Shown here: piece by piece, positions 1,582-21,892 of the stretch | Layout of the letters: each line of letters begins with the position of its first letter | How positions within the stretch are numbered: position 1 is the first letter of the stretch | Virus record (IMG/VR): IMGVR_UViG_3300037504_000994 | Location: 1 to 31,140 of that record | DNA: 31,140 nucleotides | Reading direction: 5' to 3' (one strand) | From: a virus | Translations under genes and position numbers: made by a program | The notes under the pieces: model-generated | Databases searched by the model: none | Told to the model about the DNA's origin: nothing | Seen by the model: the letters and a program-made list of their open reading frames with translations, nothing else

Positions 1582-1599
1582 ATTATAGAACGTCCGTTC
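1582..1599 (-). promoter_or_regulatory. LexA/SOS box overlapping a leftward promoter
   Basis: GAACGTCCGTTC (1588-1599) is a perfect GAAC-N4-GTTC palindrome, the core of Gram-positive LexA ('Cheo') boxes. In gene direction its centre, GGAC, fits the B. subtilis RNRY rule. It directly abuts a TATAAT -10 on the minus strand (1587-1582). A near-copy of the whole promoter, box and GGAGGTGA ribosome-binding site occurs at 2643-2660, implying shared regulation. Confidence 0.7.
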
Positions 1600-1701
1600 T
1601 ACCAAATGAAGGCCCCGGCCTTCCAATCGCCTGACAATCGCCGCCCTTAACGCTCTCGTAACGTCTCGATAACCCAACCTATCCCAACCCTGGAGATGCG
1701 A

Positions 1702-2118
1702 ATGACCACAAACTCGAAGGATAAACGCACCACCACGTTGGTCGTCATCGGTCTGGGCGTCTTCGTGCTGGCCGTCATCATATGCGCCGGCGTTTCATCC
1801 ATAACGAACAACAGGCGTGACGCCCGATCACCAACCCCGGATCCATATGAGGTCTTTGTCACGGTGCGTAACACCTGCGGGGTTTGTGGCACAGACTCGC
1901 CGGTAGGCGCGTGGGAAGCGGCAGACGGTCGCTCCATCATCCTGTCGGATAACGGTAACTACGTAGCCACCTTCAAAGACGGATCAACATCGACCGGTAC
2001 CTGGTCGGTAGACGACGGGGAGCTCTGCCTAACTCACGCCGCGGGCACGGCCTGCTACGCCTACCGTCAAAAAACCGACGCGATGAAACTGGAAAATGCC
2101 ATATACATCCGCCGCTAG
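1702..2118 (+). CDS. Membrane-anchored small protein, unknown function
   Basis: This is a 138-aa protein starting at ATG 1702, with GGAG six bases upstream; the ATG at 1696 overlaps that signal and is less likely. After a short basic cytoplasmic N-terminus, residues ~12-33 (TLVVIGLGVFVLAVIICAGV) form one transmembrane helix, probably exporting the rest. The exported part has four cysteines (CGVCG, then LCLTHAAGTAC) that could form disulfides. It also has a beta-rich pattern, GAWEAADGRSIILSDNG and GTWSVDDGELCL, typical of small lipocalin-like or META-like barrels. It follows the repressor gene, a usual place for lysogenic-conversion or superinfection-exclusion genes, but no family was recognised and that role is a guess. 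Confidence 0.6.
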   Translation: MTTNSKDKRTTTLVVIGLGVFVLAVIICAGVSSITNNRRDARSPTPDPYEVFVTVRNTCGVCGTDSPVGAWEAADGRSIILSDNGNYVATFKDGSTSTGTWSVDDGELCLTHAAGTACYAYRQKTDAMKLENAIYIRR

Positions 2119-2138
2119 GGGAACAATTGGAGCGACCT

Positions 2139-2486
2139 ATGCCGACCGATGACCTTGACATTGAAAGAGAAGAGTGGATCACTGCGGCGTTCGTTGAGGA
2201 AAAGAGGCGCCAGGTGAGAGAGGAGATCAACGACCTTCGGTATGTGACGAGTCGTCAGTACTTAAGCGGCGTGCTTAGAGCATCCGAAGATGCAAGCGAT
2301 GTGCACCTAATGCGTCTGGCCCTGGACAGCGACGATTATAATACCAACGAGTTTATGCAGAAGGCGTGTCGCATCCTAGCCGAGCTGTTGCCCGACGCGC
2401 ATCCTCTCCTGAAGGACATAGCGGATCGTCCGCCATTTGCAGCAGCATCGACGACGCCTGAAACCCGGAATCACCGTGATCGCTAA
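2139..2486 (+). CDS. Hypothetical acidic helical protein
   Basis: This is a 115-aa protein starting at ATG 2139, with GGAG six bases upstream; a TTG at 2127 in the same frame is the alternative. It is charged and mostly helical (EREEWITAAFVEEKRRQVRE), with no signal peptide, membrane segment or motif that I recognise. It follows the membrane protein by 20 bases and is probably co-transcribed with it. The last 134 bases overlap the convergent minus-strand gene ending at 2353, so one of the two C-termini may be dispensable or wrongly extended. Confidence 0.5.
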   Translation: MPTDDLDIEREEWITAAFVEEKRRQVREEINDLRYVTSRQYLSGVLRASEDASDVHLMRLALDSDDYNTNEFMQKACRILAELLPDAHPLLKDIADRPPFAAASTTPETRNHRDR

Positions 2487-2625
2487 GCGCCAAGCACTTC
2501 AACGCCTCGACAATCACCGGCCCGTGCTCCGGCGCTGCAACCAGAACAAAGAGGCCATCCGTGAACTCATAACGTGGTAGTCCGTGCGACTCGAGCTCGT
2601 CGGCATTGATGACAATCTCTGACAT
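2353..2625 (-). CDS. Hypothetical small protein under a LexA-type box
   Basis: This is a 90-aa protein (MSEIVINADELESHGLPRYE...). It starts at ATG 2625, with GGAGG six bases upstream. Behind this lies a TATACT promoter with an almost perfect GAAC-N4-GTTC box. The sequence FTDGLFVLVAAPEHGP then VIVEALKCLALSD looks like a small alpha/beta fold; the final 25 residues are low-complexity and overlap a convergent gene. No family is recognised. Because its promoter is nearly the same as the one facing into the repressor gene, it is probably switched on by DNA damage. An antirepressor or early lytic function is possible but unproven. Confidence 0.5.
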   Translation of the reverse strand: MSEIVINADELESHGLPRYEFTDGLFVLVAAPEHGPVIVEALKCLALSDHGDSGFQASSMLLQMADDPLCPSGEDARRATARLGCDTPSA

Positions 2626-2642
2626 ATTTCACCTCCGCACCC

Positions 2643-2660
2643 AGTATAGCACAGACGTTC
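2643..2660 (-). promoter_or_regulatory. Second LexA/SOS box and promoter
   Basis: GCACAGACGTTC (2649-2660) matches GAAC-N4-GTTC at seven of eight fixed bases. It abuts a minus-strand TATACT (2648-2643). The region from the TTCAAA -35 to the GGAGGTGA signal aligns closely with the promoter at 1582-1610, so the two look like duplicates. Confidence 0.6.
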
Positions 2661-2676
2661 TACCATTTGAAGCGCA

Positions 2677-2703
2677 GATCCACTAAGGCATTATTAGTAG
2701 ACC
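2677..2703. repeat. 27-bp dispersed palindrome, copy 1
   Basis: Arms GATCCACTAA and TTAGTAGACC flank the 7-base spacer GGCATTA. The copy is intergenic, between the SOS-boxed promoter and the attP region, 400 bases from the integrase. Confidence 0.8.
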
Positions 2704-2738
2704 GGGAAAAACGATAGGGGAGGGGACACAAACCGAGG

Positions 2739-2959
2739 GCCGAAAACACCAACCGGCGACCCCACAACCCCCCGTAACCCGAGACCACATTACTCCCTCA
2801 CCCACCTACCTATGCGGTCCGAGGTCGACCATCGCCGTACCACAGTTTGGGTCCGTGAGGTCGGCGGTTCAAATCCGCCCGCCCCGACTTTTGACCACCG
2901 GCGACCCCACAGCCGCCCGAATACCGCACCTATTGCGGTCGCCGGTAGCCGAAAACGCC
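2739..2959 (+). other. attP: Putative attP region with integrase arm-type repeats
   Basis: A tRNA-derived core (2841-2887) is flanked by two pairs of direct repeats. ACCGGCGACCCCACA occurs exactly at 2752-2766 and 2897-2911. GCCGAAAAC-R-CC occurs at 2739-2750 and 2948-2959. This is the arm-core-arm layout expected of a lambda-type attP, and the integrase begins 116 bases further on. Arms on both sides argue that this is an intact attP and not attL or attR. A small hairpin, ACCGCA/TGCGGT, lies at 2923-2939. I see no coding gene between 2626 and 3074. Confidence 0.65.
2841..2887 (+). other. 3' half of a tRNA-Pro(UGG), att core
   Basis: The bases fold as the 3' half of a tRNA: anticodon stem CACAG/CCGTG (one mismatch), loop TTTGGGT with anticodon TGG, variable loop AGGTC, T-arm GGCGG-TTCAAAT-CCGCC, and acceptor strand CGCCCCG plus A. 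No 5' half (no CGGGGCG or D-arm) lies upstream and there is no CCA. It is therefore a fragment of the kind phages carry to restore the tRNA gene on integration. It predicts a host tRNA-Pro(UGG) gene as attB. Confidence 0.75.
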
Positions 2960-3015
2960 CGACCGCAGGCCCCATGATCCCCGTTACCCCGGTTCAAAAA
3001 AAACGCCCTGTCTGA

Positions 3016-3046
3016 TTAGCAGATGAGGCGCTCACATTAGCAGACC
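3016..3046 (+). repeat. Two direct half-sites of the 27-bp palindrome upstream of the integrase
   Basis: TTAGCAGATGAGGCGC (3016-3031) and TTAGCAGACCAGGCAC (3037-3052) are direct repeats offset by 21 bases, two helical turns. Both begin with the right arm of the dispersed palindrome. They end just before the integrase ribosome-binding site, where binding would affect integrase expression. Confidence 0.65.
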
Positions 3047-3074
3047 AGGCACCTAGCGAACCGGAGGTCCCACT

Positions 3075-4013
3075 ATGTCCAGGCTCAATCTGACGCTCGA
3101 CCAAACCATCGACGGATTCCTGCTCCACTGCCAGTCCAAACGCCTCAGCCGGCACACCATCCGCAACTACCGATATGCCCTCGATAAACTGCTCACCCAC
3201 GTCCCCGGCACCACGCCCCTGGGGGACATCACCGTCCGCGACGTTTCTGCTGCCCTGGCTACCTACACCGACCTGAGCAAAAAGACGATGTCCAACGTCC
3301 ACGCCGCGCTCAGCGCGATGTGGAACTGGGCCGTCCGCCAGGAGTACGCCGACGAGAATCCTCTCGAACGCATCGACCGCCCCAAACCCGAGAAACGCAC
3401 CATCGTCCCCCTGACCGCTGACGAGATTAAGGCCCTCCTCAAATCCTGTGCCCAAACGAGGGCCTACACCCGGCCCGGCAAGCGCGCCTGTACCAACAGC
3501 CGGCCCACTGCCGTCCGGGATCGCGCCATCATCCTGACACTGCTCGACACCGGTCTCCGCGCTTCCGAGCTCTGCAACCTGACCATCGCCGACTACAACC
3601 AGCGGCGCAATCGCATTAGCGTATTTGGCAAGGGCTCGAAGGAGCGCACCATTCCCATCTCCACCCAGACCGCCGAGGCAATCTGGGAGTATCTGGCCAC
3701 GCGCAACAAAGCCACCACCCTGATGGATGAGCCCCTCTTCACCACATCCACCGGCCGTTCCTTGGACCGCCACCAACTCCGGCGCCTCCTCGTCCGCCTG
3801 GCCGACGCAGCCGGCGTCGAGGATGTCCACCCCCACAAGTTCCGCCACACGTTTGCCATCTTTTACCTGCGCAACGAGGGCGACATCTACAGCCTGCAGG
3901 AGATCCTTGGCCATAGCACGCTCGATATGGTCAAAAACTACCTGACCATCGCCCAGACCGACATCGACAAGGCCCACAAGCGCGCTTCCCCTGTCGCCAA
4001 TATGCGTTTGTGA
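3075..4013 (+). CDS. int: Tyrosine-recombinase integrase
   Basis: This is a 312-aa protein of XerC/D-like size that would integrate and excise the phage at the neighbouring att core. Residues ~5-95 form the SAM-like core-binding domain (TIDGFLLHCQSKRLSRHTIR). The catalytic domain shows all the expected residues: R162 in TGLRASEL, K186 or K189 in FGKGSKERTI, H254 and R257 in HPHKFRHTF, H280 in ILGHSTLDM, and the nucleophile Y289 in VKNYL. An arm-binding N-terminal extension like that of lambda Int is absent or very short, although arm-type repeats are present nearby. The start is clear: GGAGG seven bases upstream. An insertion between residues ~124 and 147 (AQTRAYTRPGKRACTN) is longer than in typical Xer proteins. 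Confidence 0.93.
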   Translation: MSRLNLTLDQTIDGFLLHCQSKRLSRHTIRNYRYALDKLLTHVPGTTPLGDITVRDVSAALATYTDLSKKTMSNVHAALSAMWNWAVRQEYADENPLERIDRPKPEKRTIVPLTADEIKALLKSCAQTRAYTRPGKRACTNSRPTAVRDRAIILTLLDTGLRASELCNLTIADYNQRRNRISVFGKGSKERTIPISTQTAEAIWEYLATRNKATTLMDEPLFTTSTGRSLDRHQLRRLLVRLADAAGVEDVHPHKFRHTFAIFYLRNEGDIYSLQEILGHSTLDMVKNYLTIAQTDIDKAHKRASPVANMRL

Positions 4014-4024
4014 GACGAGTTTTG

Positions 4025-4083
4025 TGTCATATGACAAAATAGTGACATTTGGTACTATCTTTAGTATAGCGTTGTGCTATACT
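4025..4083 (+). promoter_or_regulatory. Promoter with two palindromes upstream of the 4121 operon
   Basis: TGTCATATGACA (4025-4036) is a perfect 12-bp palindrome. AGTATAGC (4063-4070) and GCTATACT (4076-4083) form a perfect inverted repeat that includes a TATACT -10. The -35 is weak, suggesting an activated or repressed promoter. The two ribbon-helix-helix proteins of the window are candidate binders. Confidence 0.55.
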
Positions 4084-4120
4084 AGAACTAGTTGAGGGAA
4101 ACACACAGAGGAGACGAGAG

Positions 4121-4351
4121 ATGACAGACCTAGAACGAATCGCCAAATACGGAACACCCGCAATCGAGCAGATGGCCGATGATGACTTCAGCGGCCAGCC
4201 CGTCAGCCCCACCGAGTACCGCGAGATGGGCGGCACTAATGAGGAGTACATCGAGGATATGAAGGCAACCCTCCCGTGCTGGAGAGAGCTCGACGCTGAT
4301 CAATACGCAATCTGGCACGGACGAGTTACCGAATTGGTTGAGGAAAACTGA
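4121..4351 (+). CDS. Hypothetical small acidic protein
   Basis: This is a 76-aa protein (MTDLERIAKYGTPAIEQMAD...) with GAGGAG upstream of the ATG. It is strongly acidic and has no recognisable motif. It is the first gene of a three-gene plus-strand operon behind the integrase, directly downstream of a palindrome-rich promoter. The next gene starts one base after its stop. Its small size, acidity and pairing with a ribbon-helix-helix gene would fit a toxin-antitoxin-like or anti-host early gene, but nothing in the sequence proves it. Confidence 0.6.
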   Translation: MTDLERIAKYGTPAIEQMADDDFSGQPVSPTEYREMGGTNEEYIEDMKATLPCWRELDADQYAIWHGRVTELVEEN

Positions 4352-4352
4352 G

Positions 4353-4895
4353 ATGGGCACCAGGCAGTTAAATGTGCGATTGAGCGAACCGGGATGGGAT
4401 AAATTGGACGCGCTGACAGAGTTGTACGGGGCAAAGACCCGTGTGGTAGAGGTTGCGATCGACCGGCTGTTTAACTCAGAGATTCCACAGGAGGAAAACA
4501 AGATGACGACACGAACAGTAGTTGCACGCGGCAGTGGGTGGAGCGCATCGTCCTTATACGACGCAAGCTCCTGGGGTGACGAAATCGATGACGAGACCGC
4601 CACAAAGCTAGGCAACATGGTTGTCCAACGGTTTCACGAGCTCTGCGAGGCGCACGGTGGCGGCGATATCTACTGGGAGCCGCAACTCAGCGAGGTCACC
4701 GCTGAGGTTGTAGGCGAGGGACACCGGATGTGGGAGCGTGTCCACCCGATGGACGAGGAGTTGGAGATCCTTCGCCAGCAAGCTGGCGAGGAGGTCTGGG
4801 CGGTTTTCTGTGATGACACGGCTCAGCTACAGGGCGATGTACCCGACTGGATCACAAAACAGGTCCGCGAGATCTGGGACCGGATGGAGGCATAA
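4353..4895 (+). CDS. Ribbon-helix-helix protein fused to an unknown domain, with an internal start
   Basis: This is a 180-aa protein. Residues 1-45 (MGTRQLNVRLSEPGWDKLDA then LTELYGAKTRVVEVAIDRLF) match the CopG/Arc ribbon-helix-helix fold. A linker follows (NSEIPQEENK), then a ~130-aa acidic domain (TVVARGSGWSASSLYDASSW...) that I do not recognise. The linker DNA carries a perfect AGGAGG (4489-4494) eight bases before an in-frame ATG at 4503, stronger than the signal of the full-length start (GAGG, nine bases). Two proteins are therefore likely made: the DNA-binding fusion and the free C-terminal domain. The layout suggests two genes that merged by loss of a stop. It may autoregulate the palindromic promoter upstream. 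Confidence 0.65.
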   Translation: MGTRQLNVRLSEPGWDKLDALTELYGAKTRVVEVAIDRLFNSEIPQEENKMTTRTVVARGSGWSASSLYDASSWGDEIDDETATKLGNMVVQRFHELCEAHGGGDIYWEPQLSEVTAEVVGEGHRMWERVHPMDEELEILRQQAGEEVWAVFCDDTAQLQGDVPDWITKQVREIWDRMEA

Positions 4896-4896
4896 T

Positions 4897-5175
4897 ATGC
4901 CCAGACTCTCAGCCACCGAAAAGCTAGAGAGGGCCACCCAGGCCCTCTCCGCTGCCAAAGCCGAACTGGCCCAACTGCCGCCCAAGGGCCGCGAGCGCAC
5001 CGCCATCATCAACCGGGCCCGCGGGCATCTCAACACTGTCCGCCGCAACGCCTACAGACTCGCTGACACACGCTTTCATGATGCCCGCAACGCCACCCCC
5101 GGCCAGCGAGAGCAAGCCAAAGCTCTGATGGACGCTATCGACAACCTATGGCCGGATCCCAAAACCGGCAGATAA
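4897..5175 (+). CDS. Hypothetical basic helical protein
   Basis: This is a 92-aa protein (MPRLSATEKLERATQALSAA...) beginning one base after the preceding stop, with GGAGG seven bases upstream. It is rich in lysine, arginine and alanine, almost wholly helical, and probably forms a coiled coil (residues 8-60). No family is recognised. It closes the plus-strand operon and is followed by a strong terminator at 5210. Nucleic-acid binding is possible from the charge. Confidence 0.6.
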   Translation: MPRLSATEKLERATQALSAAKAELAQLPPKGRERTAIINRARGHLNTVRRNAYRLADTRFHDARNATPGQREQAKALMDAIDNLWPDPKTGR

Positions 5176-5209
5176 TTACTCGTTAATCGTTACTCGTTTT
5201 CCACAAACA

Positions 5210-5235
5210 AAGGCCCCGGCAATTGCCGGGGCCTT
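5210..5235. terminator. Bidirectional rho-independent terminator
   Basis: GGCCCCGGC (5212-5220) and GCCGGGGCC (5225-5233) form a perfect stem with the loop AATT, flanked by AA and TT. It separates the plus-strand 4121-5175 operon from the end of the minus-strand late operon, whose last stop is at 5281. Just upstream, TTACTCGTT is repeated at 5177 and 5190. Confidence 0.85.
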
Positions 5236-5280
5236 CTCCTTTGGTCGACATCCATAGCATATACGCTATGACGCACGACG

Positions 5281-8200
5281 CTACCGATCCGCCAGCGCCA
5301 CCACCGGCGACCGCGGTCCCCATTCCAGATCGTACCACCCGCCGCCCCACCACTCAGACGAGCTCCCCGCGTCCGCCAGGTGCCACGCACACGCGCCCGC
5401 CACCTCGCCGCGCTGGGCCAGATAGTCGAACGCCTCCCGCAGCCGCTGGCCCCACGTCACCTCGTCGTAGAAGCCGGTCCCATCCGGCAGCCGCACGATA
5501 AGATCCTCGTCACACCAGTTCAGTTCCCACATATGGAACGGGCTGTAAAGCACGCCTTCCGTGATGATCGTCGTGATCTCCTCATCCTCACCCGTCTTCT
5601 CCCGGATCCACCGGCGGTATGGTTCGTACCCCCGGAGGCACATATCATCGACGCCCTGGCCCCACGTCGGCTCGTAGTCGAACGGCCGTGCGAACGCCGC
5701 GCTGTGAACCGCTAACCACACATTAGCAGACCGGATCCACCGGGGGAGCTCGTAGCCGTGTGTGGCCATCAACCGGGCTATAAACCCCTTGAACCACATC
5801 CAGGACGAATACCGGGGATTGAGACCGCCGCGCTCCGTCGGCCCCATCGCCGGAATCGCCGGGCAGCCACCCCATTCGACGATCTGCACGGCGTCCAGCC
5901 ACCAGCTATCCGCTGCCTGGTTGACCAGCTCGACATCGTGCCAGTCCACGCGCTCGTGGTAGTCCGGCTGCCATTCCACCGTCAGGTTCAGCTCGTTCAT
6001 CACTTCCATGAATGGCTTGAACCGCGTGCCGTGAGCGGCGTTGTATGACAGAACCGTCCCGATCATCTGACGCACGGCCCGCGCCCCGTTCACGATCACC
6101 TGATTCCGGCCGGGGAGCTGCGCGTCGTCGTAGATCCGCACCACCGGCTGGATGCCGGCACCCATCAGCTTATCCATCAGGTCGTAGGTGCCCGGATGCC
6201 CGTTAAACAGCAGCTTGTACCACCGAACCCCCAGCATCCGTAGCCGGCCGATCAGCGCGTCGAGATCCTCCGGTGGCGCCGTCGAGATTGGCCCGTGGAC
6301 ACCCCTCACCGATGTCGGATCTGGGGGAGGGGGCTGATCCTTGCCCCACCCCGCTAGCCACGGCCACGAATCGCCCGGGCACTGTGTTCCGATGACGTCC
6401 TTATGCCCCCAGACACTCAGCCCCTTGCCCACCACCTCCTCGAGGTAGTCGATTAGAGCCACCAGCGACGCCATCTGGGCATCCGTCGGCTCCCGACCGT
6501 CGATGAATCTGCCCAACAGGCATACCGCGATGCCCCACCAATTCTCGTCTCCGGGGTGCGACGCACTCCCCTGTCCAAAGACCACATTCTCCAGATCGCT
6601 CGTTTGCCAGATTGTACCGTCTGCACCGATCACGTAACTGTAGCAGATCCCCGGTCGGTTTTTCCCGTCCGGCGCGACGTGATACCGCGCGATGGCCTTG
6701 ACCGTCGCGATGTCGCTCGACAGCGCGCCCGCGCTGTGGTGCACAAACACCGTATTGATCTCGCTCAACTGACGCCGGCGCCACGGATACCACGGGCTCT
6801 GTGGATTCGTCGCCATCCGGTCCCGCACGTCCACGATCTCCAGCTCCGGCTCCGGATCCTGCCCGGCCGGAGGAGGCTCACCGCCGTTCGGCAGTGGGCG
6901 AAAAACGAGTACCGCCTCGGGATCGCGCTCCGCGTAGAACGCGATGTAGTCGACGTCATCCTCGCTGAAGCCCGGCAGCTCGATGGTGCTGGTCCGCGCG
7001 TTAGGTGGTCGGTTCGCCGCCTCGTCGTGCGACGGTCCGCAGTAAATCCCCCGCTGACGCGCCTCCTGGTAGAGAACTTCTCGGATAGCTTCGTCCTGAA
7101 TCCGGTCGTAGTCGACCACCAGCACACGGCGATCATACCCCGGTTCCGGCTCCGGTTCGGGATCCGGCTCCTCCGGCTCCACGCTCAGGATCGCCCGTGC
7201 CGCATCCACCGCGATCGCGCGCCAGTGCGACAGGTGCATACGGATGTCGAAGCCCCGCCATGGCCCCCAGCTAAATAAGTGTACGTCCGTCACCTCCGGA
7301 TCCTCCGCGGCTTTCGTCAAATACCAGCGCATCTGCCGTTCCCACTCCTCGCCGGAGATTTCGGTCATCTTGCGCGCCAGATTCACCTCGGTCAGCGCCA
7401 CGGGTACGAATAGCCCGCGCGCCCGCAGGATCTCCAGCCAGTAGCGATACCTGAACGCCAATGGCCCTTTGTCCGATGCGTCGCCGTCGTAGCCCGGCAG
7501 CGCATCGCCGAACCACTTATCCATAGGATCAGCGTACTCGTGCAGGCAGAGGACAAGGCCCTCCGGATCGTCAAAGACGCCCGTCTCGACCACGGCCCGC
7601 ATCTCGTCCCACTCCGGCACGCCCAGGCTGTAGCTGAAAGCGCCGACCGTCACCCCGTCCCGCCGGCCCAGCCTACCCAGTTCCTTGAAGAATAGCCCGA
7701 GCTTGACGTGGTCGGCGTCTTGCTCATTGATGATCTCTAGGATATCGATGAGTGGTAGATAATCAGCCATCACATCCATCAGCGCGTCCCACACGCGCCC
7801 GGCCGCCGTCACAGGATCCGGGTCCAGACTGGGCCCTTCGATGTTGATGTCGTACCCCGGTAGCATCGACAGCCGGAACGTCGTGCGGATGTGCGGATTG
7901 ATCCGCTTGAATAGCCGCAGCGTGTTGGCCATCTCCGGCACACCGTAGACTTTGATCGTCGGCAAGGCCGCCGCGATCTGCGCCGGCGTCGCTTCCGGGA
8001 ACTCGCGCACCATCTGCTCGTGCAAGGCCCGGAGCTCGTCGCTGGCGCCGTTGTCGCCCAGCGTGACGTGCAGGCCCGGCGGCACCATCGCCCGTTCGAC
8101 GGGTGGCGCCGGCGGACCCGGCTCGTCCGGCTCCCCCACGACCTCCCACACAGGGGCAGCGATATAGCGGTCGTTGTGCTTCGTCCGCCACTTGTTCGAC

Positions 8201-8832
8201 GTCCGCACAAACCGCGTCATTGTCGCGCCGGTGGCCACCGCCTCGACCGCCACCGGTGCGAATTCGTTGTAGATGCTCCAGCACGTGCCCCAGATCACGG
8301 TGTCCGCGTAGGGGTCCGTGCCCCCCGTCGGGTCGAGACCCACCTGGAATGCGCAGCTCTGCAAAATGTCCACCATCTTCTGATCGTCGTACCGCTGGGG
8401 GATCGCGTCGTGCGGCATCGCAAACGCCGCCGAGCCCACGCCGTCGCTCACATCCGCCTTGTCGCCGTTCGAGTTCCAAGCGTGCGCCTGCACCTCAAAT
8501 CGGTAACGTGTCCCGGGCGTCACATCCTCGACGCGATACACCCCGCCGATGGTGCGTCCCCAAGCACTGAATAGGGCCAGGCTCCGCTCGTCACCGTGCC
8601 ACCGCTCTGGGTACACAGGCTCGGCCTCGCCGTCGACCTCCGTCAACTTGATCTCCGGCACCGGATACGGCGGCTCCGCCTCCTCCGAGTGCACGCACCA
8701 CAGATGCCATCCCTCCGGTCGCGTCACGAACCCATATGCCTCCGTCTCGTAATACTCCTGACCCTCCGCATTATCCGGCGTGTAGCACCGGATCAAATGC
8801 GGTTGCTCTTGGGCCTTCGCGTTGAAACTCAC
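5281..8832 (-). CDS. Giant modular lysin: amidase between two glycosidase-like barrels
   Basis: This is an 1183-aa protein. The GTG at 8832 is preferred because AGGAGG lies six bases upstream; a GTG at 8847 would include that signal as codons. Numbered from 8832, there is a ~245-aa beta-rich N-terminus. A clan GH-A-like barrel follows, with the Asn-Glu pair in EIINEQD (E370) and a second Glu in LTEVN (E482). After a PEPEPEPEP linker and a ~100-aa segment comes an N-acetylmuramoyl-L-alanine amidase (Amidase_2/PGRP), with zinc ligands in FVHHSAG (~698), GHKDV (H810) and QCPGD (C818). A second GH-A-like barrel ends the protein, with MNELN (E947) and ITEGV (E1092). It is the last late gene, behind the tail fibre, so it could be a virion-borne wall-degrading enzyme or the lysis enzyme. 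No holin is seen nearby. Confidence 0.82.
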   Translation of the reverse strand: MSFNAKAQEQPHLIRCYTPDNAEGQEYYETEAYGFVTRPEGWHLWCVHSEEAEPPYPVPEIKLTEVDGEAEPVYPERWHGDERSLALFSAWGRTIGGVYRVEDVTPGTRYRFEVQAHAWNSNGDKADVSDGVGSAAFAMPHDAIPQRYDDQKMVDILQSCAFQVGLDPTGGTDPYADTVIWGTCWSIYNEFAPVAVEAVATGATMTRFVRTSNKWRTKHNDRYIAAPVWEVVGEPDEPGPPAPPVERAMVPPGLHVTLGDNGASDELRALHEQMVREFPEATPAQIAAALPTIKVYGVPEMANTLRLFKRINPHIRTTFRLSMLPGYDINIEGPSLDPDPVTAAGRVWDALMDVMADYLPLIDILEIINEQDADHVKLGLFFKELGRLGRRDGVTVGAFSYSLGVPEWDEMRAVVETGVFDDPEGLVLCLHEYADPMDKWFGDALPGYDGDASDKGPLAFRYRYWLEILRARGLFVPVALTEVNLARKMTEISGEEWERQMRWYLTKAAEDPEVTDVHLFSWGPWRGFDIRMHLSHWRAIAVDAARAILSVEPEEPDPEPEPEPGYDRRVLVVDYDRIQDEAIREVLYQEARQRGIYCGPSHDEAANRPPNARTSTIELPGFSEDDVDYIAFYAERDPEAVLVFRPLPNGGEPPPAGQDPEPELEIVDVRDRMATNPQSPWYPWRRRQLSEINTVFVHHSAGALSSDIATVKAIARYHVAPDGKNRPGICYSYVIGADGTIWQTSDLENVVFGQGSASHPGDENWWGIAVCLLGRFIDGREPTDAQMASLVALIDYLEEVVGKGLSVWGHKDVIGTQCPGDSWPWLAGWGKDQPPPPDPTSVRGVHGPISTAPPEDLDALIGRLRMLGVRWYKLLFNGHPGTYDLMDKLMGAGIQPVVRIYDDAQLPGRNQVIVNGARAVRQMIGTVLSYNAAHGTRFKPFMEVMNELNLTVEWQPDYHERVDWHDVELVNQAADSWWLDAVQIVEWGGCPAIPAMGPTERGGLNPRYSSWMWFKGFIARLMATHGYELPRWIRSANVWLAVHSAAFARPFDYEPTWGQGVDDMCLRGYEPYRRWIREKTGEDEEITTIITEGVLYSPFHMWELNWCDEDLIVRLPDGTGFYDEVTWGQRLREAFDYLAQRGEVAGACAWHLADAGSSSEWWGGGWYDLEWGPRSPVVALADR
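5706..5732. repeat. 27-bp dispersed palindrome, copy 2 (in lysin gene)
   Basis: Arms GAACCGCTAA and TTAGCAGACC flank the spacer CCACACA. It lies inside the coding sequence of the second barrel and encodes RSANVWLAV. The right arm matches the consensus perfectly. Confidence 0.8.
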
Positions 8833-8860
8833 GTCCCACCTCCTCACATCGTAAATTGCA

Positions 8861-8887
8861 GGTCCGCTAACCCTCTATTAGTGGATC
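8861..8887. repeat. 27-bp dispersed palindrome, copy 3
   Basis: Arms GGTCCGCTAA and TTAGTGGATC flank the spacer CCCTCTA. It covers the last codons and the stop of the coiled-coil gene and ends 29 bases upstream of the lysin start. Confidence 0.85.
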
Positions 8888-9178
8888 AACCTCCTCGTCG
8901 TGCGCTCCCTCGTCCGCGGCTTCTGTCGCCGGTCGCTCAACCTCACCGTCGTCGGCTTCCGCCGGCGGATCAGGTGCCCGGAATATCACCGCCGATCCGT
9001 CAGGATCCGAACGCACCTGATATCTGCCCTCCGGAAGGCTGTACTTCTGCCGCAACATCTCGATCTGCTCGTTTTCGGCCTCAGCTATGTCCTGGAACTC
9101 CTCCTGCAGCCGCTGCCGTTCCCGCGCCAACGCTACGAAAATCCGAATCTGTGTCTTGCTCAACCGTCGCTCGATCAT
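8867..9178 (-). CDS. Small coiled-coil protein between fibre and lysin
   Basis: This is a 103-aa protein with AAGGAG upstream of ATG 9178, starting 11 bases after the fibre stop. Residues ~10-50 (IFVALARERQRLQEEFQDIA then EAENEQIEMLRQKY) form a clear amphipathic coiled coil. The C-terminal third is acidic and disordered (EADDGEVERPATEAADEGAH). It has no transmembrane segment, so it is not a holin of usual type. Its place suggests a fibre chaperone, a trimerisation aid or a small virion protein. No family was recognised. Confidence 0.6.
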   Translation of the reverse strand: MIERRLSKTQIRIFVALARERQRLQEEFQDIAEAENEQIEMLRQKYSLPEGRYQVRSDPDGSAVIFRAPDPPAEADDGEVERPATEAADEGAHDEEVDPLIEG

Positions 9179-9188
9179 AGTTTCTCCT

Positions 9189-12100
9189 TTACCACGCTGT
9201 TCCTGCGCTGTGGTCGTGAATGATGGTGTATGTAGTTGATCCCCCGGCCTTTGACGCGACGAGAACATCCCCGTCGTCGCCCTTCCCTGTCCCGTCGCTC
9301 ATCCAGACAACGGCCTCGCCCTCGCTTGGCTCTGTGGGGTCACTGGAGCGTTCCGTGAAGTGGATTGCGCCTGTATCCGGATCGGTGCTCCGATTTCCGA
9401 TCATGATTCCTCGCCCAACCCGAATGTCGCCAACGGTAAAAATATCACCGTGGCCAGGGGATAATGATGCGTTGTTGCCGACGCTAACGCCGTCATCAAT
9501 AATCAGTTCCGGCAAAACGGTGATGTCGCTCGCGCCTATAGACAGTTTCGTTGATGTGCTTATGCTAAAAACAAATGCATCTGCTACAGTACCAAAGTCA
9601 AAAATTTCTACGCCAGCATTATCATAGTAGCTAATGGTAGCCTTTTCGGTCGCGCCATTTTTGAATAGGAGCCGGGCGGTTGACGATTGTGGGAAAATCA
9701 ATCCTTCGCTGTCAAGTCGGACATTTCCGCCGCCAGCCAGGATCGCCCCATCTGTTCCCACCTCCACCTGAACCGTCGCGGAACCGTCACCGTAGAAGCC
9801 GAACTTGCCTGTGCTTTGGTCCCACCGAATTGCCGCCGAACCGCTCACATTGTCACCCAGCACAAGGTCAGCCTTGTCCATCGTAAAGCCGCCCCAGCTT
9901 TTACCGTCCTCCAGGCTCAGCCCAAACGCCTCGTTGCCGTCCTCGTCATAGGCGAACCATCCGCCAGCGTCAATGCTGGTCCTCGCCCCGCTGGTGCTCG
10001 TCGCTAGCAAGAATCGTCCGTCAAGGATGTACACCCCCGGCGCATCCAGCGCCCCCGTGTCCGCCAACGGCGCCCCCCGCTGGTACAGCCCGGCGACTTG
10101 CTCAGCGGTGAGGCCAGTTGCCAATACTGCAATTTGCGACAACGCGACACCAACCGTTCCCGCTCCGGCGCTGACGACGATGCCACGGAAATCAAAGCTC
10201 GCTTCCGACTGAGACGTGTTTTGCAGCTCTACACCATCCTCATAACTACGAACAGTAGTGCCGTCCCATGTCACCGCCGCGACATGCCACTCATCATCAG
10301 TCAGGCTAGCGGACGACCCCGCTAATGACGACCCGGTAAACGAGCGATTATCCAACTCCCAATACCAACGGTCGCCGTCTTGATTCCAAAGTGCGTAGAG
10401 ATCGCCACTACCGCCATCGTTGAGCAAAACGGGATATCCACTAATGTTACTCGCGTCGGCCAACACCCGATAGATTAGGATGATGCTGCCAGACGTGAGC
10501 GTTTTTGAGCTCTGCGAATAAGTCAGCGTCGTCGCAGACCGTGTGCTTGTGCTTTCGTGTGCAGTGCCCGACCACGCTCCCCACGTCAAGGAGCCATCGA
10601 CATAGGTCGTAGCATATGCACCCTTTTCGAGTTGTACACTATCGATATTAATATCCGATGCGGAGCGCAATCGAATCATAATGCCTGTGCTAGTGCCGGA
10701 GCCCAATGTCACAGTATATGTGTGTCGGGTCCACGTCGGCTGCGCCGTATACGTGCCGGATGTGTGCCATCCATCGACGCTGTCATAGACCCGGAGCTCA
10801 AACGTGCCGGAACCTTCCACGTAGACAGACAACGTCACCTGGTCGTCGCTTAAATCCGCATTGATATAATCGTAAATGTAATCTAGGTTGCTACCGGCAA
10901 TATGTAGGTGCGTATCGCCATGCACTGCACTTATCGTACGATATTCAAACGTGGAAAGCGAACTATCGTCACTCCATCCCGTTTGAGCTTCCATCGAACC
11001 ATGTTCGGCGTAGTTGGTAGTCCCCTTCTCCACCACCAACGCTCGTGTGTCAGGCCATCTACCAGCCACCTGATGGAACGCTCCCGAAATCGTCGCCGCC
11101 TGCCCCCGCAGCGATGTCCACGACGTGCTTGTGATCGGGCAGTCAGAATTGAGCAGTAACAGGCCGTCGGCGGTGGAGAAGAGTTGCTCACCGAAGCCGG
11201 TGGTGAATTTGGTCGCGTCCACCGTTCCTTCGATCAGCGCATCCCCGCGAATCCTCAGGCTATTGGTTTCGTCGTAGGCCATCCACTTGTCGCCGCTGTA
11301 ATCTCCGATGAAAATGCCGTATTCCTCACTGGAGTAGTCTGCCAATCCGTTGAGGTCGCCCAGCCGGATAAGCTCGGTCTGCGCGTTATAGGTCGCGCCG
11401 TGCTTGAGGATGCTGATGCGCGGCGTGTCGTAGGCGTTAAGCTCGATCCGCCCGTCCCCCTCCTGACCGAAGGCCGCGAAGGGCGCGCCGTTGGGCCAGG
11501 TGTTCGCGCCGGACCCATCCACGTCCCGCGTTACATTCCAGACATTCGCGCCGACGTAGCTGCCCAACTCCATGTATTCCACCTTGAGCGACTGTCGGAA
11601 CACGATGAAGTCTCCGGCGCTGAGGACGCTATCGGAGACGCCCAGGTCGATTTGCGTTTCCGAGCCGTCGATGTCCTCCTGAGTCGTGCCGCCGTACTTG
11701 GTGATGTAAAACCAGCCGCCCAGTAGCGTGATGGTGTTTTCTGCGAAGATGATCGTGTCCAACTCGGAGAGCCAGCCCTTGCGCCACAGGAGCGTGCTGG
11801 TGCCGATGTCGTAGGTGTCCGTCGTCTTGGGGATGAGGTGGTCTGCCACGCGATATGGGTCAAAGTCGCCGGATAGCGTCAGATCCACTAGTTGCAGCCC
11901 GCCGCCCGCGTCAGATTGCAGAATCGACGCCGCAGCGCCCGGATTGCTGGAGGTGGTCACTTCGTGCGTGTGGCTGCTCGCCGTCACCGCGTTGGATGTC
12001 CCGGTATTGAGCGTCGAAGGCGTTCCCAGCGCCACCGCATCGGCGGCTACCGTCAGCCCGTCGCCGTCCCCCACGGCCAGCGCGCTACCTCCGCCGCCGG

Positions 12101-12515
12101 TCAGCCCGTCGCCGGCCGCCTCCGCAGCAATGCGGTAGGCGTTGCTGGACACCTCAATGCCGTGGCCCGGTGAGCCCACATCCACCCCATCGACGTTGCC
12201 GACGTTGGTGATGGCGTTGCCCCCCATATTGAGCGCGCCGGTCATCGAGCGCGCCCCGTTGTGTTTCAGGAACTGAGGTGCCTGCGCATCATCCAGCGTC
12301 CCGGTGTGGATCGCCGTGTCGTTCAGCCCGTGCTGTGACGTGACGCCGGACCCACCCGAGGATCCTCCGCCGGATGTGGTCGCACCGCCGATGTTTAGCT
12401 CGTCGTCCCGGCCCAGCCAGATCTGCTGTTGCAGGTTGCGGTTCGGGTCGTAAAAGTTGATCGGCACCTCGTAACCGACGAGGGCGATCTCCTCGTCACT
12501 CAGTTCGTAGGGCAT
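9189..12515 (-). CDS. Long tail fibre with LamG-like domain
   Basis: This is an 1108-aa protein. The N-terminus (YELSDEEIALVGYEVPINFY) is followed by a Gly/Ser linker and a fibre-like repeat zone (LNDTAIHTGTLDDAQAPQFL, GDGLTGGGGSALAVGDGDGL). Residues ~480-640 look like a carbohydrate-binding beta sandwich (SMEAQTGWSDDSSLSTFEYR). Residues ~670-835 resemble a LamG/concanavalin domain (LTDDEWHVAAVTWDGTTVRS, ending LTAEQVAGLYQRG). The C-terminal ~270 residues are beta-rich with low-complexity Gly/Ser/Thr. It would bind the host surface. The start has GGAG directly upstream and behind that copy 4 of the 27-bp palindrome. DNA from about 9400 to 11100 is visibly more A+T-rich than the N-terminal half, suggesting domain exchange. 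Confidence 0.8.
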   Translation of the reverse strand: MPYELSDEEIALVGYEVPINFYDPNRNLQQQIWLGRDDELNIGGATTSGGGSSGGSGVTSQHGLNDTAIHTGTLDDAQAPQFLKHNGARSMTGALNMGGNAITNVGNVDGVDVGSPGHGIEVSSNAYRIAAEAAGDGLTGGGGSALAVGDGDGLTVAADAVALGTPSTLNTGTSNAVTASSHTHEVTTSSNPGAAASILQSDAGGGLQLVDLTLSGDFDPYRVADHLIPKTTDTYDIGTSTLLWRKGWLSELDTIIFAENTITLLGGWFYITKYGGTTQEDIDGSETQIDLGVSDSVLSAGDFIVFRQSLKVEYMELGSYVGANVWNVTRDVDGSGANTWPNGAPFAAFGQEGDGRIELNAYDTPRISILKHGATYNAQTELIRLGDLNGLADYSSEEYGIFIGDYSGDKWMAYDETNSLRIRGDALIEGTVDATKFTTGFGEQLFSTADGLLLLNSDCPITSTSWTSLRGQAATISGAFHQVAGRWPDTRALVVEKGTTNYAEHGSMEAQTGWSDDSSLSTFEYRTISAVHGDTHLHIAGSNLDYIYDYINADLSDDQVTLSVYVEGSGTFELRVYDSVDGWHTSGTYTAQPTWTRHTYTVTLGSGTSTGIMIRLRSASDINIDSVQLEKGAYATTYVDGSLTWGAWSGTAHESTSTRSATTLTYSQSSKTLTSGSIILIYRVLADASNISGYPVLLNDGGSGDLYALWNQDGDRWYWELDNRSFTGSSLAGSSASLTDDEWHVAAVTWDGTTVRSYEDGVELQNTSQSEASFDFRGIVVSAGAGTVGVALSQIAVLATGLTAEQVAGLYQRGAPLADTGALDAPGVYILDGRFLLATSTSGARTSIDAGGWFAYDEDGNEAFGLSLEDGKSWGGFTMDKADLVLGDNVSGSAAIRWDQSTGKFGFYGDGSATVQVEVGTDGAILAGGGNVRLDSEGLIFPQSSTARLLFKNGATEKATISYYDNAGVEIFDFGTVADAFVFSISTSTKLSIGASDITVLPELIIDDGVSVGNNASLSPGHGDIFTVGDIRVGRGIMIGNRSTDPDTGAIHFTERSSDPTEPSEGEAVVWMSDGTGKGDDGDVLVASKAGGSTTYTIIHDHSAGTAW

Positions 12516-12524
12516 CGGGTCTCC

Positions 12525-12551
12525 GTTCCGCTAACCGGTTATTAGCAGACC
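12525..12551. repeat. 27-bp dispersed palindrome, copy 4
   Basis: Arms GTTCCGCTAA and TTAGCAGACC flank the spacer CCGGTTA. It lies just upstream of the tail-fibre ribosome-binding site, in the 54-bp gap after the C1q-like gene. Confidence 0.85.
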
Positions 12552-12569
12552 ACCTCGTAGCGAATAGCA

Positions 12570-13220
12570 TCAATTCGGTCTCACAAACTCCGCCCAGAAA
12601 TAGGCGGTCGCGATGTTGATGTCTTGATCAACGTAGACCTGGCACGTGATATAGTCCCCTGCCGCGAAGTCGTAGGGGCGGCACGCCAACGGCAGCATCA
12701 GGTCGTGCCCGGCGACGCGGTACGTCGGGTTGTGGAACTTGCCGATCTCGGTCGTGCCGTTCAAAAGAATCCGCACGCCGAAGATCAACTCGTTGCTGGA
12801 GATTCCGTCACTGTCGAACTCTACATTCGCGCCCACGCGGTAGATGCCGTCACCGTTGGCGACAAACGTCAGTCGCTCCGTATTCGTGCTCGTATCGTGC
12901 ATCGCATTGGTGTCCAGGTCCTCGGCATCAAACTCAATGTCGTCCCACGACGACACGGTCGGATCGAACGCACTGCTGATATATACGCTGACGACCGGTT
13001 GGATCTGCCAGCGGGGCCGCGCGGAACCCGCGACGAGCACGTCGTGCTGGCTCCCGATCGCCAGACGCGTGACCGCCTTACTCCCCGTGGCGATAACGAT
13101 ATCGCCCTCGGTCGTCACCTGATTCACGCCCGTCGCCAGCAGCGACGAGCGCACGTTGTTGCCCCACGTCGTGGCGATGACCGCCCCGTTGCTTACCGCG
13201 CCCGGATCGAAAAATGCCAT
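12570..13220 (-). CDS. Tail protein with C1q/TNF-like C-terminal domain
   Basis: This is a 216-aa protein starting with GGAGG ten bases upstream, 12 bases after the hub gene stop. The first ~70 residues (MAFFDPGAVSNGAVIATTWG...) resemble the N-terminal attachment segments of phage appendage proteins. From ~75 to the end the pattern (TERLTFVANGDGIYRVGANV, VRILLNGTTEIGKF, FAAGDYITCQVYVDQDINI, YFWAEFVRPN) matches the C1q/TNF-like jelly roll common at the tips of phage tail proteins and spikes. It probably forms trimers and binds receptor or other tail parts. Confidence 0.7.
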   Translation of the reverse strand: MAFFDPGAVSNGAVIATTWGNNVRSSLLATGVNQVTTEGDIVIATGSKAVTRLAIGSQHDVLVAGSARPRWQIQPVVSVYISSAFDPTVSSWDDIEFDAEDLDTNAMHDTSTNTERLTFVANGDGIYRVGANVEFDSDGISSNELIFGVRILLNGTTEIGKFHNPTYRVAGHDLMLPLACRPYDFAAGDYITCQVYVDQDINIATAYFWAEFVRPN

Positions 13221-13232
13221 CTCAATAGCCTC

Positions 13233-14762
13233 CTAGTAAATCCACACGTCCCCGCCCTGCCAGGTCGACGTGTTCCACGTGCCCGCCGTCGCCCCGTAGT
13301 CATAGGCCTCTTCCAGATCCATAGAGACCACGTGCTCGCCCGTCCGGAAGTCGATCTCGTGCCGCAACCCGTAGATGAATCCCTCGAAGCTGCTCAGGCC
13401 CACCTGCGTCTCCGTCACGTCCACCCGGTCCACCAGCTCCAGATCGCGCGCCGCCGCCATCATCGTGGCGTTGTAGTTGGCCAGGAACTGCACGTTCCGC
13501 ACCATCCCCCGCGGGTCCTTGTAGTAATCGAGCAGGAAGTCGGCCAATGACGCCGCCTCTGCCTCACTGCTGATCAGCACCGCGTCGATGGGCAGCCGCA
13601 GCTTGCCGTAGAGTCCCTGGCTCGTCGCGTCCTCCTCTACCAGCGTCACCGACCGCGCCCGGACCGCGTAGCCGCGCACCCGCAGCGTCTGCACGTAGAC
13701 GGCGTGAGCCGCGCCGTTGGTCAGCGTCACCTCGGCGTGATCGCCGTAGGCGTCCATACCGGAGGTGACGTTGGAAGTCTCGTCGTCGCCCTCCCCGCCC
13801 TCGTCGCTGGTACATTCGTAATCCGTCGACGCCACCGGTGTAATCGCGTCTTTGCCGCCCAATGAGACGGCGATGTTGCTGGGATCCTGGTAGCGGATCG
13901 TGAAGGTGCGGCTCGCCCCGGCCTCGATGATCGGCGCCGTGCCGTCCGAAAGCTTCCCCAGCACCTCCGGAGAGGATCCCACCCTGCGGGGATGGCACGT
14001 CACCTCGATGTAGTTGAAGATCTGAGTCTCGCTCATCTCGTAGTCCAGCCCGATCATCGTGTCGTCCAGCGTCAGCTCCGCCGCCGCGTCCAGCGGCATC
14101 TGGTGCCGGTTGATGAAGGTCGGCTTGCCGTCGCCGGCGAAGAAGAACTTGCCCCAGTCCGCCGTGCACGCATCCAGCACCTTGTCGCTGGCCCGGATAT
14201 CCTGGACCGGTCCGTTGGCCGCTTCGCGCTCCCAACTCCACCGGTCGGAGCTGGTCGGGAAGAGATTGATCCCTGCCTGGAAGTCGGTGGTCGGTGGGGA
14301 GTCGTAGACCGCGTTGATCACGTCGTCGATCACCTCGTCGGCGTAGACGTCGGTCACCAGCGCGATAGCGCCCTCGCTGGTGTCCAGCACCTTCATATCG
14401 TCTACGCACTCGATCATCGTCACCCGGTCCGCGCTGTACTGGTCCGCCGTCGGCTTGATCGAGGTCAGGTAGCCCGCGAATAGCGTCGTCGTCGTCCCGT
14501 CATAGGTCATCTCGAACTTGACCTTGCGCCGGGGCCGCACGTTGGCCGCCAGCGGCGGGCTGTAGTCCTGGTCCACGTTGTTCAGAATCGCGCTCAGTCG
14601 CCCCACCCGCGTCATCCGGGCCAGCGGATCGGAGAATCCCCGGTCGATGACGACCTTGTCCAGCATATCCGAGGTGACGTCCTCGCCGGCGTCGCCGTAG
14701 TCTCCATCCCCGTTCCAGTCGATGGAGAGCGTGTAGGTTGCCGTTTCCGTCGTGACCGTCAT
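13233..14762 (-). CDS. Tail hub / minor tail protein
   Basis: This is a 509-aa protein. The opening (TYTLSIDWNGDGDYGDAGED) and long beta-rich body are typical of the baseplate hub or minor tail protein encoded after the tape measure in siphoviruses. The NGDGDYGDAGED stretch has EF-hand-like calcium-binding spacing of Asp and Gly. It is separated from the tape measure gene by the plus-strand moron cassette, breaking the usual direct succession. Its ribosome-binding site AGGGGA lies inside the left arm of copy 5 of the 27-bp palindrome, so a protein bound there, or that arm in mRNA, could affect it. Confidence 0.7.
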   Translation of the reverse strand: MTVTTETATYTLSIDWNGDGDYGDAGEDVTSDMLDKVVIDRGFSDPLARMTRVGRLSAILNNVDQDYSPPLAANVRPRRKVKFEMTYDGTTTTLFAGYLTSIKPTADQYSADRVTMIECVDDMKVLDTSEGAIALVTDVYADEVIDDVINAVYDSPPTTDFQAGINLFPTSSDRWSWEREAANGPVQDIRASDKVLDACTADWGKFFFAGDGKPTFINRHQMPLDAAAELTLDDTMIGLDYEMSETQIFNYIEVTCHPRRVGSSPEVLGKLSDGTAPIIEAGASRTFTIRYQDPSNIAVSLGGKDAITPVASTDYECTSDEGGEGDDETSNVTSGMDAYGDHAEVTLTNGAAHAVYVQTLRVRGYAVRARSVTLVEEDATSQGLYGKLRLPIDAVLISSEAEAASLADFLLDYYKDPRGMVRNVQFLANYNATMMAAARDLELVDRVDVTETQVGLSSFEGFIYGLRHEIDFRTGEHVVSMDLEEAYDYGATAGTWNTSTWQGGDVWIY

Positions 14763-14763
14763 T

Positions 14764-14790
14764 GTTCCCCTAATTCACTATTAGCAGACC
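14764..14790. repeat. 27-bp dispersed palindrome, copy 5
   Basis: Arms GTTCCCCTAA and TTAGCAGACC flank the spacer TTCACTA. It overlaps the ribosome-binding site of the hub gene and ends four bases before the SOS box of the divergent moron promoter. Confidence 0.85.
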
Positions 14791-14794
14791 ACTA

Positions 14795-14838
14795 GAACGC
14801 ACGTTCCATTGACGCCGACCACCGACATGGCGTATACT
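14795..14838 (+). promoter_or_regulatory. SOS-boxed sigma-70 promoter of the moron gene
   Basis: GAACGCACGTTC (14795-14806) is a perfect GAAC-N4-GTTC box that fits the B. subtilis RNRY rule. Two bases later TTGACG (14809-14814) and, after 18 bases, TATACT (14833-14838) form a strong promoter, with a start expected near 14845. LexA bound there would cover the -35. Confidence 0.75.
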
Positions 14839-18806: not shown

Positions 18807-19390
18807 ACCAGCCTCCGGTAGGGATCCAAAACCACCTTCACGTCCTTCGGCATCCCTTGCGGCACCGTCATCACGCCGGCCGACGGCATGGCTGTCACGT
18901 CGAAGATCTGCGCGTCTTTCTGCCGGTAGTAGTACGACGCCAGCCGGATACAGGCGTGCACGATGTCCGCCGGCGGCGTCACCGAGTAGCCCCACCACCC
19001 CGTCACTGTGATCCCATCTTCCGGATCGTCGGTGTAATCCCACGACTCCGAGGATGACGATGCTAATTTGACCGCATAATACGGCGTTTCGTTGCGCGGC
19101 TTCGTGTGGTAGTCGGTGGTCTCCAGCGTCGTCCCGCCGCTGCCGTCATCCGCGTTGGTCACAATCGACGTGATCTGGCAGAGATCCTCGTCGAAAAAGA
19201 GCGTGCGCTCGACCGTGTCCACGCCCACGGTGAAATACCGCGTGCTGTCAGATCCCACCTTGAAGATGCGATCCGTGTAGGTCTCGATAGCCTTCTGTGC
19301 CCGGTCGATCAGGTCGTCGATCAGGTCGTCGTCCGTGGCCTCGCTGATGCCCAAATACGTTTTGACCTGCGCCTTCGTGCAATAGGCCAT
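18803..19390 (-). CDS. Head-tail connector (gp6/gp15-like adaptor)
   Basis: This is a 195-aa protein with AGGAGG before the ATG; the preceding stop overlaps as TGATG. The opening (AYCTKAQVKTYLGISEATDD, then DLIDDLIDRAQKAIETYTDR) is characteristic of the phage head-tail connector family that forms the ring beneath the portal. A beta-rich insertion fills the middle, and IVHACIRLASYYYRQKDAQI is the conserved C-terminal helix. In most HK97-like phages this gene follows the capsid gene closely; here four sugar- and sulfate-modifying genes lie between. Confidence 0.8.
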   Translation of the reverse strand: MAYCTKAQVKTYLGISEATDDDLIDDLIDRAQKAIETYTDRIFKVGSDSTRYFTVGVDTVERTLFFDEDLCQITSIVTNADDGSGGTTLETTDYHTKPRNETPYYAVKLASSSSESWDYTDDPEDGITVTGWWGYSVTPPADIVHACIRLASYYYRQKDAQIFDVTAMPSAGVMTVPQGMPKDVKVVLDPYRRLV

Positions 19391-21883: not shown

Positions 21884-21892
21884 AAATCCTCC

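Follow-up and report, generated by a model that had tools for sequence, protein, structure and literature searches.

Predicted LexA-type operators in promoters of a phage immunity region, one of which faces the gene of a short repressor without a self-cleavage domain

The viral record IMGVR_UViG_3300037504_000994 of the IMG/VR database was analysed over its positions 1 to 31,140 (this whole stretch is called the window). Studying its immunity region reveals a short repressor gene which is faced from its 3' side by a promoter with a putative LexA-type operator, one of three such sites that an earlier note on this DNA had described as an SOS regulon of small genes. The repressor (1094-1510, + strand) is an XRE (HTH_3) protein of 138 amino acids (aa) with relatives at the loci L003, L004 and L068; the family search finds only a helix-turn-helix (HTH) and no peptidase or self-cleavage domain, as the note had said. 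In front of it lies a divergent control region (980-1093) with a leftward early promoter TTGACA-17-TATAGT (1036-1008, 11/12 matches), and the leftward operon starts with the gene of a ribbon-helix-helix (RHH) protein in cro-like position (728-979, - strand). On the 3' side of the repressor two further + strand genes come first, then a half site resembling tRNA-Pro and the gene of a tyrosine integrase. The two lysogeny-side genes encode a 140-aa protein (1696-2118), in which a hydrophobic N-terminal segment is seen by eye, and a 115-aa protein (2139-2486). The candidate phage attachment site (attP; 2846-2887, + strand) corresponds, as read by eye, to the 3' half of a sequence like tRNA-Pro(TGG) that lacks CCA, and the integrase (3075-4013, + strand) is supported by family matches. 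Imperfect 30-nt direct repeats in three copies (2752-2991) flank the candidate attP and are possibly arm-type integrase sites. Because the structural genes are on the - strand, leftward is the lytic direction.

Three promoter-like sites belong to the boxes. Promoter P1 (1582-1610, - strand) has a -35 TTCATT (1610-1605), a spacer of 17 bp and a -10 TATAAT (1587-1582), while P2 (2643-2671, - strand) combines TTCAAA and an extended -10 TATACT, again with 17 bp between them. On the - strand both show the same order of -35, box-containing spacer, -10, GGAGGTGA and ATG. The near-duplication including the ribosome-binding site (RBS), which had been noted before, is borne out by a 44-nt direct repeat (1568-1611 and 2629-2672) with 35/44 identities (80%), the best chance match across 12 simulations being 28/44. 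This repeat spans -35, operator, -10 and RBS, and an ATG follows each copy. Between the stop codon of the repressor gene and the -10 of P1 there are 71 nt, and P1 points leftward, therefore it faces this gene; we speak of a facing promoter where a box promoter is directed at a short XRE repressor gene from no more than about 200 nt beyond its 3' end. P2 likewise opposes the last + strand gene of the lysogeny block (2139-2486), with which it is convergent. The third promoter, P3 (14809-14838, + strand; TTGACG-18-TATACT, 10/12 matches), stands beside its box within the - strand tail cluster, so that the third box is indeed found among tail genes.

The GAAC-N4-GTTC sites themselves are all present where the note had placed them, at 1588-1599 (GAACGTCCGTTC), 2649-2660 (GCACAGACGTTC, one mismatch) and 14795-14806 (GAACGCACGTTC). 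Perfect boxes occur twice in the window with 0.45 expected. With up to one mismatch the bare box is not enriched (11 versus 11.6 in shuffles) and therefore cannot alone carry an operator claim; its counts were dropped as proof. For the extended palindrome TAGAACGNNCGTTCTA (TAGAACG-NN-CGTTCTA), which uses site 1 as template, the window contains only three matches with at most two mismatches, and these are sites 1, 3 and 2 with 0, 1 and 2 mismatches. The expected mean is 0.04, and three matches were reached in none of 300 simulations. Since site 1 is in this motif by construction, the evidence consists of sites 2 and 3. Operator 1 (1586-1601, - strand) is a perfect palindrome (TAGAACG-GA-CGTTCTA), operator 2 (2647-2662, - strand) reads TAGAACG-TC-TGTGCTA, and operator 3 (14793-14808, + strand) reads TAGAACGCACGTTCCA. 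The first two are placed inside the spacers of P1 and P2 and the third directly 5' of the -35 of P3, in agreement with the earlier description of boxes in or beside a -10 or -35. The RNRY rule of B. subtilis-type LexA boxes, to which all three centres had been said to conform, is followed on the + strand by sites 2 and 3, and by site 1 on the - strand only (GGAC); taken alone, this fit is weak evidence. Motif and placement together support a prediction of LexA-type operators set in promoters, of the motif known from Gram-positive LexA, and this includes site 3 as a predicted operator.

In order to see how far such sites recur, the pattern TAGAACN4GTTCTATAAT and a composition-matched control (TACAAGN4CTTGTATAAT) were scanned against 2.9 million viral contigs (IMG/VR). 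The box pattern matched at 62 loci and the control at 8 (sign test 2e-11), which after duplicate removal leaves 54 box sites versus 7 control sites. A -35 with at least five of six matches at 17 bp is found at 13 of the 54 sites and at none of the 7 controls, and the box centre has R at position 1 in 44 and Y at position 4 in 46 of the 54. One site (L093), which is not from the host of this phage, has recA behind it. Among 76 neighbour proteins from a chosen subset of loci there are 14 HTH_3 and three Peptidase_M78 matches. These results support LexA as the usual binder of the box/-10 module in hosts with Gram-positive-type LexA; for the phage studied here the support is indirect. XRE genes, detected with an XRE profile built for this analysis, lie within 1.5 kb of 18 of the 54 sites (controls 0/9), and 12 of them are convergent (binomial 2e-4 if the four orientations are equal). 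For 13 convergent cases, with this window among them, the distances were tabulated, and from the repressor stop to the -10 there are 33-189 nt. The repressors (113-145 aa) share at most 43% pairwise identity; the arrangement recurs in unrelated phages.

The scan also brought up some loci with other organisations. At L040 (4872-4895; IMGVR_UViG_2728369350_000002) a symmetric LexA-type box is shared by two divergent promoters, one directed to an ImmA/IrrE-like (Peptidase_M78) gene and the other to a RelB-like antitoxin open reading frame (ORF) beside a YoeB-like toxin gene. At L054 (3748-3767) a 75-aa ORF, by eye similar to the LexA DNA-binding domain, directly follows the TAGAACN4GTTCTATAAT promoter and is possibly a phage imitator of LexA under LexA control. 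L055, L071 and L100 have related small membrane ORFs (holin-like by eye) behind a TTGAC-type -35 and the same pattern.

Two of the 62 loci, L068 and L095, proved to be relatives of this phage, though the scan used the box only. The L068 repressor is homologous to that of the window (33% identity, E=2e-11) and has the same convergent box promoter, the P1-like sequence extending down to TATAATGGGAGT. L095 (63% GC) has a tail protein in common with this phage (27% over 530 aa) and shows the order of the window, with RHH-like (-), XRE (+), box promoter (-), membrane-protein-like (+) and recombinase (+) genes. The ORFs behind the facing promoter differ among this phage, L068 and L095, which suggests that the transcript and not a peptide has been kept in this group.

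Phages unselected on the box were obtained as relatives of the L080 repressor, by protein similarity in a public phage collection, plus one relative of the L065 repressor. Perfect boxes past the repressor 3' end are present in ES-S-0173-01 (Clostridioides, +194), TPDSL_ph2 (Terrisporobacter, +167) and MT835516 (+201), and one-mismatch boxes in the Clostridioides phages Hain-Saunders-2022a (+242) and phiCD08011 (+218). AR1086-1 and phiCDIF1296T, whose repressors and box positions are identical, have one-mismatch boxes further out, and no box follows the repressor in Faecalibacterium phage FP_Epona and Enterococcus phage phiEf11. According to our own arithmetic a perfect box is expected by chance in about 1 in 200 stretches of 300 nt.

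Behind the facing promoter of clostridial-type loci come an RBS and an ORF of 31-58 codons, and a conserved family of helical peptides (31-44 aa) is encoded at L080, L065, L073, L083, L127 and L129. Many of the named clostridial phages chosen by their repressor likewise encode a peptide of this size there, for instance one of 37 aa in TPDSL_ph2, and these peptides are unrelated to the ORF behind P1. A profile built from L129, L080, L073, L065 and L083 recovers L127 (2e-5) and L091 (0.0015), and weakly the ORFs at the same position in L125 and L126. Pfam and NCBIfam contain no convincing model for these peptides; one matches phrog_19640 (function unknown). Compared with the C-terminus of the facing repressor the full-length peptides give a mean z of 1.43 (reversed peptides 0.76), and with hand-trimmed segments cognate and non-cognate pairs differ with p=0.04. 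A mimicry of the C-terminal repressor helices by the clostridial-type peptides is thus only suggestive, and in the window it is not upheld (P1 ORF versus repressor C-terminus, z -0.19); the peptide profile matches no ORF there.

Behind P1 an ORF of 68 codons (1359-1565, - strand) starts at ATG 1565 after the RBS GGAGGTG (1575-1569), overlaps the final 152 nt of the repressor gene in antisense and has no meaningful family matches. A codon-usage score trained on the long genes of the phage gives -0.39 per codon, and -0.72 in the part not antisense to the repressor. The repressor gene itself scores -0.16, therefore the score is not absolute; still, this ORF is probably not a functional protein. 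The 90-aa ORF behind P2 (2353-2625, - strand), whose 3' end overlaps that of 2139-2486 in antisense, is coding-like (0.26 in the non-overlapping part), as is the 103-aa gene behind P3 (15011-15322, + strand; 0.135), a lone + strand gene (moron) with the RBS AAGGAG in the - strand tail cluster. The family searches gave no match for either of them, no relatives of the 90-aa ORF were found in viral contigs, and the structure models made from single sequences were of too low quality for a search (predicted local distance difference test, pLDDT, of 50 for the 90-aa ORF and 61 for the all-helical 103-aa protein). The 90-aa ORF is a candidate SOS-induced antirepressor. The proposed regulon of small genes has to be modified, as 1359-1565 has a non-coding codon usage.

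Putting these features together, we consider it reasonably probable that P1 and P2 form a LexA-controlled trigger in the lytic direction, with P1 convergent with the repressor gene. A non-cleavable repressor would need a LexA-type trigger. In the lysogen, host LexA most likely holds P1 and P2 off by the operators in their spacers; after DNA damage LexA would be cleaved and both promoters would fire leftward. The P1 transcript, being antisense to the repressor gene, could lower the amount of repressor through head-on transcription and antisense RNA, and transcription from P1 could feed on into the leftward early operon (RHH, LexA-like), the lytic side. In a scan with a consensus no terminator-like site is seen on the - strand from P1 to the RHH gene. 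P2 would supply the 90-aa protein, which may be the antirepressor, and P3 would bring the 103-aa tail-region moron into the same response. Host LexA control as the trigger, which the earlier note had proposed for small genes, is partly supported: the scan (62 versus 8), the site before recA and the non-cleavable repressor favour LexA-type operators in promoters. P1 lacks a clear small gene, and the binder may be host LexA or the LexA-like protein of the phage. It is conceivable, though we put it forward tentatively, that the locus belongs to a widespread class of prophage triggers in which a LexA-controlled promoter fires head-on into the gene of a short non-cleavable repressor from just behind its 3' end. 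In clostridial phages it would express a 31-44-aa peptide that may imitate the C-terminal repressor helices. Antisense transcription alone may be at work in this phage and its relatives, with a ribosome-loaded leader ORF that keeps the polymerase moving across the repressor gene and on to the early operon.

Several observations weigh against a LexA-controlled trigger at P1 and P2. The -35 of P1 is weak (3/6 matches), its ORF is not coding-like and has no likeness to peptides at the same position elsewhere, and in the repressor relatives L003 and L004 no such box is seen at the corresponding position. The phage also encodes a LexA-type DNA-binding protein of its own. The boxes are of the Gram-positive type, and the LexA motif of the host may differ. 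Searches of named phages by DNA and protein yielded no host. The nearest terminases found in genomes are mostly from metagenome-assembled genomes of Desulfobacterota (about 50% identity), and the seven genomes with these terminases lacked the tRNA target, which was also absent in a search of the phylum of one of them. The integrase relative L044 adjoins a host tRNA-Pro ending CGCCCCGACT; from this insertion site and the general look of the proteins a Chloroflexota host is suspected.

The phage's own LexA-type protein is also the basis of the main rival explanation. It is encoded on the - strand (322-780, 152 aa) in the operon at which P1 points; the note had mentioned a LexA-like protein, and a LexA DNA-binding domain is found (PF01726 LexA_DNA_bind, E=9.6e-11). 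The product resembles LexA chains in the PDB (E=2e-4), the family search gives no S24 self-cleavage match, and no relatives were found in viral contigs. If the three boxes were operators of this protease-less winged-helix protein, they would serve internal timing without a link to DNA damage, or the shut-off after induction. In its favour, a LexA-domain-only ORF and three TAGAAC/GTTCTA palindromes occur together in the terminase relative G011, and the 75-aa LexA-domain-like ORF of L054 directly follows such a box. We nevertheless regard this explanation as unlikely, as the box/-10 module also precedes recA (L093), no LexA-domain-only protein was found in the convergent-box records searched (L068, L095, L037, L081 and L103, some of them fragments), and Gram-positive LexA has, by eye, one residue more in its recognition helix than 322-780. 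G011 (L121) is an 82-kb relative with its LexA-domain-only ORF at 28124-28300 (PF01726, E=1e-12); its palindromes are parts of longer inverted repeats, no promoter is evident there, and they were left uncounted in our analysis.

Compatible with LexA control is the idea that the last step is performed by a small antirepressor, the P1 68-codon or the P2 90-aa ORF, which binds and inactivates the repressor while the antisense transcription is incidental. RBS and ATG were duplicated along with the promoters, and clostridial phages have the conserved helical peptide with its weak resemblance to the repressor C-terminus at this position. On the other hand, the P1 ORF is neither coding-like nor similar to the repressor C-terminus or to the L095 and L068 ORFs, and the 90-aa ORF is without found relatives, which makes this last step possible but on balance doubtful. 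Operators at P1 and P2 that serve the XRE repressor, or some other regulator of the phage in place of LexA, would fit the location in the immunity region; this is very improbable given that the same palindrome stands beside repressors with no more than 43% identity and before recA. Least probable of all are three chance palindromes, for which the missing enrichment of the bare box could be quoted, since the extended motif, the duplication, the promoter context and the recurrence elsewhere speak against chance.

Some further genes of the window should be mentioned. An ORF running off the left end (1-345, - strand) resembles, as judged by eye, a second tyrosine recombinase in its N-terminal core-binding part; Pfam gives no such match. 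Adjoining the terminase gene, an HTH protein of the plasmid-antitoxin kind is encoded (29340-30143, - strand; phrog_1381, E=7e-12), and no toxin partner was recognised. Three ORFs between capsid and tail genes (19390-21889, - strand) appear by eye to encode glycosyl- or sulfate-transfer enzymes; one of the three has a weak glycosyltransferase match.

For most Gram-positive and uncultured hosts it is unexplained how DNA damage is sensed by phages whose repressors are short and non-cleavable. The recurring LexA-type promoter opposite the repressor offers a testable answer and a signature for the prediction of SOS-inducible prophages. The tiny convergent ORFs are often unannotated, also in named clostridial phages. 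In our literature search, which mostly did not reach subscription papers, we found no LexA-type promoter or ORF facing a phage repressor from the 3' side.

ICEBs1-type elements use the pair ImmR/ImmA, where a short XRE repressor without a protease of its own needs a second factor for the SOS signal. The window has such a protease-less XRE repressor too, but no Peptidase_M78 gene was recognised among its scanned proteins, whereas other loci (e.g. L040) have one near the same box. Head-on transcription from lytic and lysogenic promoters placed face to face is known as a switch element, for example from pR and pL of coliphage 186; here the opposing promoter is located beyond the 3' end of the repressor gene and carries a LexA-type operator. 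In the TF-smORF (transcription factor-small ORF) modules of linear plasmid-like phages, small phage proteins decide on induction as well, but independently of SOS and with the smORF divergent from the activator gene (PMC10432266), while in the window the promoter with the LexA-type box faces the repressor. SOS control via LexA of phages with non-cleavable repressors is known from 186 (Tum), N15 (AntC) and Gifsy, and the gene under LexA control in systems of the Gifsy type is found outside the immunity region (PMC3121763). Our phage resembles these three in its non-cleavable repressor and in a predicted induction through a LexA-box promoter, here read from sequence. The likeness to 186 Tum and Gifsy drawn earlier nevertheless misses the main point (PMC3121763): the genes of Gifsy, 186 and N15 are outside the immunity region, whereas P1 lies inside it, convergent with the repressor gene and followed by an ORF that is not convincingly coding.

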